From Verrucomicrobiota bacterium (GTDB lineage Bacteria > Verrucomicrobiota > Verrucomicrobiia > Limisphaerales > UBA1096), in assembly GCA_030747605.1 (NCBI GenBank), contig JASLKL010000004.1, forward strand, positions 1-41,409: a DNA stretch of 41,409 bases, read 5' to 3'. A program made the position numbers and the translations under genes. The notes under the pieces are model-generated. The model worked only from the letters and a program-made list of their open reading frames with translations, had not been told where the DNA came from and did no database searches. Within the stretch, counting starts at the first letter, position 1. Each line of letters starts with the position of its first letter. This document shows positions 21,884 to 27,000 of the stretch, one piece after another.

Positions 21884-21912
21884 TTGACCCAGAGCATTGG
21901 CAATTCTAACTT
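21884..21912 (+). promoter_or_regulatory. candidate promoter of the DUF6807 gene
   Basis: TTGACC (five of six to the -35 consensus) and TAACTT (three of six to -10) are 17 bp apart. The ATG at 21921 follows the -10-like box by 8 nt, so the mRNA would be leaderless or carry only a few leader bases. Confidence 0.35.
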
Positions 21913-21920
21913 TCTCAGTG

Positions 21921-22916
21921 ATGAAATCACGTTTCTTATTGTCTGTTTTTGCAGGATTGGTGGTATTTGGTCAGTTGAAGTTGAATGCGCAGGAGGGGGC
22001 GTTTGAAGTCAAGAAGGACGGTGACAAATATCGTATTGAGATCGATGGGAAACTATTCACTGAGTATATTACCAAAGGATACAACAAGCCGGTGCTTTAT
22101 CCTGTTATAGGCCCGCATGGTGTCAGTATGACTCGGAATTATCCTTTTAAGACAGTAAAAGGTGAGGCGACTGATCATGTTCATCATGCCTCACTTTGGT
22201 TTACTCACGGTGAGGTGAATGGGATCAGTTTTTGGCATAACGGAGAAAAGACTGGTAAAATTATTCCTACCGAAGTGGTTCGAGCCAAGGGTGGTCGTTT
22301 TGCTTCAATTGTTACAAAAAATAATTGGAATGGACCCGATGGAAAGACTATATGCACCGATCGCACTTCCATCAGTTTTTTTAAGACGGCTAAAGGGACT
22401 ATGATCTCCTATGGCGTGACTGTTCATGCTTCAGAAGGAGACGTTAAATTTGGTGATACAAAGGAAGGCTCAATGGGGATTCGTACTCATCCCAATCTTC
22501 GATTGAGCAATGGCAAGGGAGTGACTACTGCCAACGGAAAAGCTTTGAACAGTGCTGGGCATAAGGATAAGCAACTGTGGGGCAAAAGAGCTAAGTGGGT
22601 AGATTATTGGGGCAAGATTGACGATCATACTGTTGGTGTGGCGATTTTTGATCATCCAAACAACCCGCGTCATCCTACTTGGTGGCACGCCAGAGACTAT
22701 GGATTAATAGCTGCCAACCCGTTTGGTATACATAACTTCGAGGGTAAGAAAAAAGGGGTTGGCGATATGACAATCAAGAAGGGTGAAAAACTGTCGTTTC
22801 TCTATGCTTTTCTTTTTCATGAAGGAGATGCGGAGTCTGCCGGTATTGCTGAGACCTACGATCGTTGGGTGGAGGCCGTAGCCAATATGAGGGCTCGTGC
22901 TGGAGGTAATAATTAG
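21921..22916 (+). CDS. DUF6807 (PmoA-like) family secreted protein
   Basis: A 331-residue protein with an N-terminal signal peptide (about residues 1-22). It fits the DUF6807 family, often annotated 'PmoA family' although it is not a methane monooxygenase subunit. Recognisable parts are TKGYNKPVLYPVIGPHGVSMTRNYP, DHVHHASLWFTHGEVNG with its histidine pair, DRTSISFF, SMGIRTHPNLRL, and VAIFDHPNNPRHPTWWHARDYGLIAANPFG. The conserved histidines suggest a metal or sugar site. These proteins occur with sugar-degrading genes in Planctomycetes, Verrucomicrobia and Bacteroidetes, but the activity is unknown to me. ATG 21921 is preferred over TTG 21897 because it begins the signal peptide directly. Confidence 0.82.
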   Translation: MKSRFLLSVFAGLVVFGQLKLNAQEGAFEVKKDGDKYRIEIDGKLFTEYITKGYNKPVLYPVIGPHGVSMTRNYPFKTVKGEATDHVHHASLWFTHGEVNGISFWHNGEKTGKIIPTEVVRAKGGRFASIVTKNNWNGPDGKTICTDRTSISFFKTAKGTMISYGVTVHASEGDVKFGDTKEGSMGIRTHPNLRLSNGKGVTTANGKALNSAGHKDKQLWGKRAKWVDYWGKIDDHTVGVAIFDHPNNPRHPTWWHARDYGLIAANPFGIHNFEGKKKGVGDMTIKKGEKLSFLYAFLFHEGDAESAGIAETYDRWVEAVANMRARAGGNN

Positions 22917-23021: not shown

Positions 23022-23882
23022 ATGTCTGGTGCTTATAGCCAACTTCTTGAGGCCACTATTGGTTACCTTGAGTCCCTAAAGCAGAAAGGGGTTCGTTATG
23101 TGGATGTTTCACCGGAATCAGTCAATGCTCTGATTGAGCCGGTTTTACGGGAAGTGGGTTCTTCAGAAGGTGGAACACAGATCACATCGCAGGCAGTTAT
23201 TCAATCGAGTCGGGCAGATGGACCAAGTGTTTATGATTCTCAGAGACTTTCATCCGCGGATAAGGTTTCAGCAATGGATCAATTACGGGACGAGATATCG
23301 TCTTTAAAAAAGAGCCCTGAATTATTGGCTTCTGGTGCAAAATTGGTCTTTGGGGTAGGGACTGTTGATGCTGACCTAATGTTTGTGGGTGAGGCTCCAG
23401 GAGAGGATGAGGATCGTGAAGGAGAGCCATTTGTTGGGAAGGCCGGTCAGCTGTTGATGAAAATCATTCAAGCTACAGGTCTCGATCGTGAAAAGGTTTA
23501 TATTGCCAATGTGCTAAAATATAGACCTGACACTCCAGGTAAATCTTTTGGTAATCGCAAGCCTCGACCAGATGAAATCGAAAGTTGGTTTCCTTTTTTG
23601 ATGCGACAGATTGAAATCATTCAACCAAAAATAATAGTTGGGTTGGGGGCGACAGCTGTAGAGGGTTTGCTTGGCCATATGTCAACTGGCATCACTCGGC
23701 TCCGTGGTAACTGGCAGTCTTATCGGAGTGTGCCTGTAATGCCTACATTTCATCCTTCCTATCTTTTACGAAATCAATCCTGGGCTGTAAAACGTCAGGT
23801 TTGGGAGGACATGATGCAGGTTATGGAGCGACTTAATATGCCTATTAGTCAGAAACAAAGGGGATTCTTTCTTCGAAGATAG
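23022..23882 (+). CDS. uracil-DNA glycosylase, family 4-like, without iron-sulfur cysteines
   Basis: A 286-residue protein of the uracil-DNA glycosylase superfamily. Motif A is GEAPGEDEDREGEPFVGKAG (residues 123-142), exactly the family 4 pattern, and motif B is HPSYLLR (244-250). It should remove uracil from DNA at the start of base excision repair. Family 4 enzymes bind a 4Fe-4S cluster through four cysteines, but this protein contains no cysteine at all: the usual K-C-R-P-P is KYRPD (Tyr167) and the later cysteine position is Trp189. An extra N-terminal region of about 100 residues (1-105), helical and polar, replaces the short CxxC-bearing N-terminus. The fold call is sure; catalytic activity is inferred. 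Confidence 0.88.
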   Translation: MSGAYSQLLEATIGYLESLKQKGVRYVDVSPESVNALIEPVLREVGSSEGGTQITSQAVIQSSRADGPSVYDSQRLSSADKVSAMDQLRDEISSLKKSPELLASGAKLVFGVGTVDADLMFVGEAPGEDEDREGEPFVGKAGQLLMKIIQATGLDREKVYIANVLKYRPDTPGKSFGNRKPRPDEIESWFPFLMRQIEIIQPKIIVGLGATAVEGLLGHMSTGITRLRGNWQSYRSVPVMPTFHPSYLLRNQSWAVKRQVWEDMMQVMERLNMPISQKQRGFFLRR

Positions 23883-23974: not shown

Positions 23975-24235
23975 TTACAAGGAGAGAGTCTCCTCGTTGA
24001 TTCGATTATACGAATCGAGTTGTGGCGCGGATGCGCCTGCCTGATCGGCATTCGATAGATCCAGAATGCTATTCAGATCTTCACGTACCGTCACTCGACC
24101 CCATCGGGTCTGGATAACGGATGTGTCACCTACCGGTTCAACGGAGATGACCGTGTCGAGGTTGAAAAGCACCTTTGAATCTTCTTCAGCATAACCGTTG
24201 GGCGATGCCTGAGTTAGTTTTACGAAGTGTGCCAT
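23975..24235 (-). CDS. small conserved-looking protein, FlbD-like pattern, function unknown
   Basis: An 86-residue protein that I do not recognise with confidence. Residues 1-58 alternate hydrophobic and polar positions like a small beta domain: HFVKLTQ, KVLFNLDTVISVEPVGD, TSVIQTRWGRVTVREDLNSIL. The order (strand, 'FNLDTVISVE', 'T-x-I-x-T', 'GRVTVRE') recalls the FlbD family, but no flagellar gene is nearby and the similarity is weak. The last 25 residues are polar and probably disordered. The ATG at 24235 has no Shine-Dalgarno motif and a 167-bp upstream gap of its own, so it probably has its own promoter. Its coding sequence is unusually rich in perfect hairpins and more GC-rich than its surroundings. 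Gene reality is supported by the regular amino-acid pattern. Confidence 0.65.
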   Translation of the reverse strand: MAHFVKLTQASPNGYAEEDSKVLFNLDTVISVEPVGDTSVIQTRWGRVTVREDLNSILDLSNADQAGASAPQLDSYNRINEETLSL

Positions 24236-26535: not shown

Positions 26536-27000
26536 ATGAAATTATCGCAGAGAGGTGAGTATGCGATACAGGCACTTTTGGTTCTGGGTATGTACCATGG
26601 GCCTGAAGTCATTCGTATCAAGGATATTGCAAAGCGGCAAAATATTCCCAGACGTTTCCTTGAGCAGATTTTGAATGATTTGAAATCAGGGGGGTTCGTG
26701 CAGAGTCGTCGAGGCGTGGCAGGGGGGTATAGACTGGAGCGTACGCCGGAAGAGATTTCGTTGTCGGAGATTATTCGACATATCGAGGGGCCGCTTGAGT
26801 CAAGTCATTCGCTGAGCCTGGGCGACAAGAAGCATAATCTTCATTCTGATGAGGCTGCTAAATGTGCAATAAACTTTGTTATGCAGGATGTGCGATCAGC
26901 TATAGTTGAAGTACTTGAAGCAGTTACTCTTTCAGATCTATGCAGAAGAGTTCGTGAAATTCAGGGGCCAATGGAAAACCCGCCTGACTACATTATTTAG
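26536..27000 (+). CDS. Rrf2 family transcriptional regulator
   Basis: A 154-residue winged-helix regulator. MKLSQRGEYAIQALLVL opens the protein, RIKDIAKRQNIPRRFLEQILNDLKSGGFVQSRRGVAGGYRL is the DNA-binding domain, and ISLSEIIRHIEGPL the dimer region. IscR and NsrR bind an iron-sulfur cluster with three clustered cysteines, but only Cys110 and Cys136 are present here, so the protein is closer to cluster-free members such as CymR, or binds something else. Its targets are unknown; the palindrome upstream suggests autoregulation. The start at ATG 26536 agrees with the conserved MKLS N-terminus. It converges on kbl with 3 bp between stops. Confidence 0.9.
   Translation: MKLSQRGEYAIQALLVLGMYHGPEVIRIKDIAKRQNIPRRFLEQILNDLKSGGFVQSRRGVAGGYRLERTPEEISLSEIIRHIEGPLESSHSLSLGDKKHNLHSDEAAKCAINFVMQDVRSAIVEVLEAVTLSDLCRRVREIQGPMENPPDYII

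Follow-up and report, generated by a model that had tools for sequence, protein, structure and literature searches.

Can a uracil-DNA glycosylase (UDG) of family 4 do without the 4Fe-4S cluster of its family? The question is raised by a gene in the 41,409-nt stretch of DNA analysed here (the window), whose open reading frame starts with ATG and encodes 286 residues with no cysteine at all (Table 1). An earlier note, made from the sequence alone, had pointed out both the lack of cysteine and the textbook family 4 motifs, and both were borne out: the translation contains zero Cys, and GEAPG and HPSYLLR were found at residues 123-127 and 244-250, respectively. The window comes from a 2.5-Mb assembly that is 74% complete and divided into 294 contigs. 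The relatives that bear names are metagenome assemblies assigned to Verrucomicrobiota, and in many cases the sample name is a marine one; the nearest of them is Limisphaerales MED-G186 (L032; 82% identity).

Table 1. Features of the UDG locus (nucleotide positions in the window; residues numbered in the window protein)
Feature	Position	Strand	Basis
CDS, clusterless family-4-type uracil-DNA glycosylase, 286 aa, no Cys	23022..23882	+	PF03167 128 bits; TIGR00758 167.6 bits, cut-off 125.3
N-terminal helices, residues 1-40, also in 4-Cys relatives	23022..23141	+	alignment; model helices 2-21 and 31-38
Variable low-confidence linker, residues 41-77	23142..23252	+	pLDDT blocks 52 and 55 for residues 41-60; gap-rich alignment
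Catalytic UDG domain, residues 84-274	23271..23843	+	1ui1 aligned over 84-274, Z 26.1, rmsd 1.7
Former cluster ligand 1, Leu95 (TTA)	23304..23306	+	family alignment; codon reading
Former cluster ligand 2, Ser98 (AGC)	23313..23315	+	family alignment; codon reading
Motif A GEAPG, residues 123-127	23388..23402	+	sequence; E124 invariant across 68 rows
Asn163	23508..23510	+	invariant across 68 rows
Former cluster ligand 3, Tyr167 (TAT)	23520..23522	+	1ui0 and family alignments; codon reading
Former cluster ligand 4, Trp189 (TGG)	23586..23588	+	1ui0 and family alignments; codon reading
Motif B HPSYLLR, residues 244-250	23751..23771	+	sequence; 68-row conservation
Conserved C-terminal tail QKQRGFF, residues 277-283	23850..23870	+	tail pattern in 139/155 rows
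Upstream neighbour, DUF6807 protein, gene order conserved	21897..22916	+	Pfam PF14100; same order in L003/L032, L013, L016
Downstream neighbour, conserved 86-aa protein without Pfam match	23975..24235	-	gene-order comparison; Pfam search

The window protein is a clusterless variant of family 4

We compared the protein with the profiles, motifs and solved structures of the UDG superfamily. It matched the Pfam UDG profile (PF03167) and scored above the curated cut-off of the NCBIfam profile UDG_fam4 (TIGR00758), and its best solved relative by sequence was the Thermus UDG 1ui0 (E 7e-44). By the motif definitions for family 4, UdgX, family 5 and SMUG1 given in an excerpt of PMC10359453, its motif A corresponds to the family 4 pattern GE(A/G)PG. 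Its motif B is of the HPxxxLR type with the catalytic histidine. Across 68 aligned rows, Glu124, Pro126 and Asn163 were invariant and His244 was nearly so. An AlphaFold2 model (pLDDT 89.4, with middling values of 80-81 at residues 91-110) predicted a pair of helices at the N-terminus, then a linker of low confidence and, starting at about residue 84, the catalytic domain. A structure comparison matched this predicted fold to the solved family 4 enzymes (Z 27), with Z 27.3 to 1vk2, 26.1 to 1ui1, and Z 25-27 at rmsd 1.7-2.2 for family 4 overall; the model gave Z 19 with family 5 and 13-14 with MUG, SMUG1 and TDG (13.9 for MUG and 13.2 for SMUG1).

Membership in a known cluster-free family was rejected by the NCBIfam profiles, the tree and the fold comparison. 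UdgX, whose fold is related to that of the model (Z 23-25), carries GEQPG and an R-loop with His109 according to the same excerpt of PMC10359453, whereas the window protein has GEAPG, lacks the R-loop KRRIH and scored 148.6 bits with TIGR03914, below the cut-off of 189.95. The motifs GLAPA and HPSPLN of family 5 (UdgB) and GMNPG and HPSPRN of SMUG1 (family 3; fold Z ~13) were not present, and a profile search alone gave no NCBIfam match to the cluster-free families 1 and 6. The solved family 4 enzymes (UDGa; Thermus 1ui0/1ui1, Thermotoga 1vk2 and Sulfolobus tokodaii 4zbx) share with the window protein motifs A and B, the fold and 40-46% sequence identity, but the latter lacks all four cluster cysteines, with Leu95, Ser98, Tyr167 and Trp189 in their place, and has an N-terminal extension and a C-terminal tail. 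Because it agrees with family 4 in motif, profile and fold but not in the four cysteines that bind 4Fe-4S, we file it as a clusterless variant of the family and not as a plain member.

The C-terminal tail reads KQRGFF in the window and (S)EKQR-x-YF in most relatives, the pattern being present in 139 of 155 rows and missing from the other-class and Binatia rows inspected. We take this segment (23850-23870) to resemble a sliding-clamp binding motif.

All four cluster ligands are replaced

We take the four cysteines in question to be the cluster ligands, as established from the Thermus structure. Two cysteines of 1ui0 aligned onto Tyr167 and Trp189, in keeping with the two ligand sites named in the earlier note, and in the family alignment the CxxC cysteines fell exactly onto Leu95 and Ser98. 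Four coordinating cysteines are described for families 4 and 5 in an excerpt of PMC5295032. A Cys-free protein is by itself weak evidence, as zero Cys in 286 residues has a chance of ~0.045 at the window's Cys frequency of 1.08%. Unlike this bare lack, the absence at four otherwise fixed positions is beyond chance: all four positions were Cys in 12/12 genus relatives and in 51/51 further rows of the four-Cys type, and none was in the window protein.

The N-terminus did not behave as first supposed. About 100 extra residues had been thought to replace the CxxC, but an extension of ~80-100 residues was also found in 4-Cys relatives, and its first ~40 residues and the linker were common to cluster-bearing relatives across the order in the alignment; therefore it was not gained in exchange for CxxC. 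Within the catalytic domain, 18 non-ligand diagnostic differences were counted. A distance of at most 4 residues separates 9 of them from a ligand (p 6e-5), and 14 are at most 10 residues away (p 2.7e-5); neighbouring sites are not independent in these p values. This concentration of substitutions around the ligand sites would fit a re-packed pocket.

An error of sequencing or assembly, or a mis-binned contig, could in principle produce such a protein: the named genus members are metagenome-assembled, the window assembly is fragmented, and one related locus (L016) has a short N gap near the gene start. However, the same clusterless state was read in four genomes, the frame is open, and MED-G186 shares the gene order of the window with neighbours that are 75-98% identical. 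The four independent copies largely refute this explanation, whose probability we regard as close to negligible, and hidden cysteines, which the earlier note had named as a possible refutation, are very unlikely with the same state in L003/L032 (82% identical), L008 and L013.

Clusterless and four-cysteine orthologues occur within one genus

Seventeen of the 21 genomes of the family carry the gene. All four ligand Cys are present in 13 of these and none in the other 4, and the four genomes lacking a match are 61-78% complete. The clusterless genomes (G000, G001, G015 and G020) all read Leu, Ser or Ile at the first ligand, followed by Ser, Tyr and Trp, and their proteins are 65-82% identical to each other. 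In a 70-row tree built after removal of the ligand columns, the clusterless clade (98/93) branched within the cluster-bearing genus (100/100) and outside every known cluster-free family, so that the alignment and tree proposed in the earlier note support its suggestion of a lineage that has lost the cluster. The clusterless genes also have in common non-ligand residues seldom or never seen in 4-Cys rows, namely Ile at 92, Glu at 100, Leu at 102, Ala at 106, Leu at 108 and Ile at 186.

The order DUF6807 gene, UDG gene, 86-aa gene was identical in the clusterless loci of the window, L003/L032 and L013 and in the 4-Cys locus L016. Between L013 (G015, clusterless) and L016 (G003, 4-Cys), the flanking proteins are 94-95% identical and the UDGs 61%. 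L016 was 4-Cys-like at 11/11 positions with fixed differences between the clusterless and the other 4-Cys genes of the genus, and its sole N run (2318-2327) falls on the beginning of the UDG gene, leaving the catalytic domain and the downstream flank contiguous. The simplest reading of this locus would be an apparent swap, in which one allele was replaced by the other.

In the RpoB tree, G015, G003 and G004 fell in one small clade (99/99), clusterless G020 fell in the other half of the genus, and the four clusterless genomes were not grouped. This discordance argues for exchange and against a simple single vertical loss, although metagenome binning could contribute. The clusterless state might instead have arisen more than once in the genus, as the position of G020 and of 4-Cys G003 beside clusterless G015 would allow; a weaker MutY tree, most forks of which are poorly supported, likewise paired G003 with G015 (98/93). 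We consider such multiple origins distinctly unlikely compared with one origin followed by allele exchange, as the four genes form one clade even when the ligand columns are left out and have the above rare non-ligand residues in common.

Ligand loss extends to other orders of the phylum

We then surveyed a phylum sample of 387 genomes, with matches in 325, and read 29 new best loci, 60 loci mainly from the window's class and 20 from other classes. Three loci that were duplicates or fragments (L001, L052 and L053) and 20 UdgX, family 5, paralogue or unclassified loci were excluded from the row counts; seven rows (L018, L210, L212 and L173-L176) were left out of a quick tree, and the careful tree comprised 70 of the 155 rows. 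Sampling was by best match, not random, and the rows are related, so the following counts are not independent events. Among the 155 distinct aligned rows, 74 had four Cys, 79 missed at least one ligand and 2 were cut at the N-terminus but kept ligands 3 and 4. The altered rows had lost one ligand (17), two (30), three (23) or all four (9); Opitutales rows L046-L048 read C,C,W,C, and L049, a Verrucomicrobiales row, has G,A,Y,C. Of the rows from the phylum's other classes, 28/28 (8 + 20) had four Cys. Ligand losses at positions 1 and 2 in L082/L083 and at 1 in L205, taken from pairwise tblastn, were rejected, as the multiple alignment showed four Cys.

The rows of Opitutales and Verrucomicrobiales type formed a separate group (99/88) in the 70-row tree, a second and larger loss group that the earlier note had not foreseen. 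By parsimony, ligand 3 was lost at least 2 times, with five residue changes at that site. A single origin of all ligand losses was rejected, as forcing them into one clade gave a likelihood 72 lnL units worse (AU p 9.9e-5, a rough value in that the constrained group was defined by the trait itself). Ligand loss in family 4 thus happened at least twice among the sampled proteins. The third ligand was replaced by Trp, Tyr or Phe in 79/79 altered rows, a pattern that comprises few independent events. A single base change in a Cys codon suffices to give Tyr, Phe or Trp, so the genetic code may account for part of the pattern.

Opitutales-type rows (e.g. L069 and L103) frequently carry Asp, Asn or His at ligand 1, with Cys retained at 2 and 4 and Trp at 3; such an intermediate state may hold another metal, or none at all. 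On this model, the window protein could be proposed to bind a different metal, or an atypical cluster through ligands other than cysteine, but its clade varies at ligand 1 (Leu, Ser or Ile) and has Tyr and Trp at 3 and 4, leaving no conserved metal ligands, and we regard the proposal as very improbable.

Two further kinds of protein were observed in the survey. A second, ligand-less UDG paralogue is present in family f41 (putatively Akkermansiaceae-like; L173-L176); in L173-L175 its motif A reads VTDAPG and its motif B NPSYLLR, and it is probably catalytically changed. UdgX-type proteins of the same class (L149, L153, L158, L160, L169 and L177) have His in the third ligand column, and those rows in which ligands 1 and 2 are covered read Cys, Cys, His, Cys.

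The clusterless gene is under purifying selection

Catalytic-domain dN/dS was ~0.07 for the clusterless pairs L002-L003 and L008-L013, and 0.04-0.09 for the seven unsaturated 4-Cys pairs, 6 of the 15 pairs being saturated. The window gene is thus under purifying selection. Exactly one superfamily member above the Pfam cut-off was found in each of the 17 gene-bearing genomes, including the 4 clusterless ones, a sole-UDG status that is provisional as these four genomes are 74-84% complete.

These results bear on whether the protein is instead a catalytically dead or DNA-binding-only relative, either UdgX-like or a decaying paralogue, in which case the cluster loss would carry no functional message. 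Decayed clusterless copies do exist, as the altered motifs of the L173-L175 paralogue illustrate, but the window protein has GEAPG instead of the UdgX GEQPG, retains Glu124, Asn163 and His244 and evolves at the low dN/dS given above, and no other superfamily member was found in its genome. We consider a dead relative unlikely.

A genome-wide loss of iron-sulfur repair enzymes was rejected, as MutY and Nth keep the cluster motif C-x6-C-x2-C-x5-C in G000, G001, G015 and G020, and likewise in the 4-Cys genome G016. Because these two enzymes of the same genomes retain their motifs, the loss is specific to the UDG, and the cells presumably still make clusters. Separately, a recent phage origin at the DNA level was rejected, with no blastn match among phages; protein-level phage matches were all below 60% identity, the best-ranked at ~43%. 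An Rrf2-family regulator is encoded at 26536-27000. It has few cysteines, and the Cys in its middle part is missing from the relative L032, so that sensing of an iron-sulfur cluster by this regulator is improbable.

Proposed explanation and relation to known systems

Given the motifs, the fold and the ancestry, together with purifying selection and the absence of every one of the four ligands, we favour, at a probability of roughly 80%, that the protein is an active uracil-DNA glycosylase that descended from 4Fe-4S family 4 enzymes and dropped the cluster. It would still excise uracil by the usual family 4 chemistry, as we infer from the cluster lying outside the active site. Aromatic and hydrophobic packing would now keep in place the loops once stapled by the cluster (residues 92-108 and 167-193): Tyr167 and Trp189 would occupy the space that the cluster has left, and residues close by would have been adjusted to them, so that the fold is presumably stabilised by other means. 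More tentatively, at somewhat less than even odds, Verrucomicrobiota may repeatedly discard the family 4 cluster, each time with an aromatic residue at the third ligand, and cluster-bearing and cluster-free versions may be swapped between close species (G003 and G015).

In the open-access literature, with most subscription papers outside the scope of the search, no account of a family 4 UDG that had lost its cluster in nature was found. Natural clusterless MutY homologues are in print (Trasvina-Arenas et al. 2016, FEBS J, as cited in an excerpt of PMC11078426), likewise a natural 4Fe-4S loss in a DNA glycosylase, but MutY has an unrelated helix-hairpin-helix fold and acts on a different lesion, and the window UDG has 4-Cys and clusterless orthologues within one genus. 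Family 4 UDGs from Pyrococcus furiosus and Archaeoglobus fulgidus with engineered Cys-to-Ser changes, which also lack the full ligand set, are reported in an excerpt of PMC5295032 to lose only ~40% of their activity and so to keep most of it; in a family 5 enzyme, cluster disruption lowers heat stability according to the same excerpt. Those UDGs are laboratory Ser mutants, whereas the window lineage is natural and has an aromatic residue at ligand 3 and co-changes nearby.

The role of the cluster in DNA glycosylases has been debated for two decades. A 2022 review gives, in the part available (PMC9266487), both views, structure and redox damage sensing along DNA, and includes a family 4 UDG in the redox-active group. 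Here, natural orthologues that have the cluster and others that lack it share a genus, a locus and a similar selection regime, and comparing such a pair isolates the role of the cluster with no engineered damage to the protein. The aromatic residue at the third ligand of all altered proteins offers a concrete, testable rule for cluster replacement, and a family 4 annotation is no guarantee of an iron-sulfur protein. If the cluster is indeed discarded repeatedly and swapped between close species, uracil repair in living cells would need neither the cluster nor any DNA charge transport passing through it.
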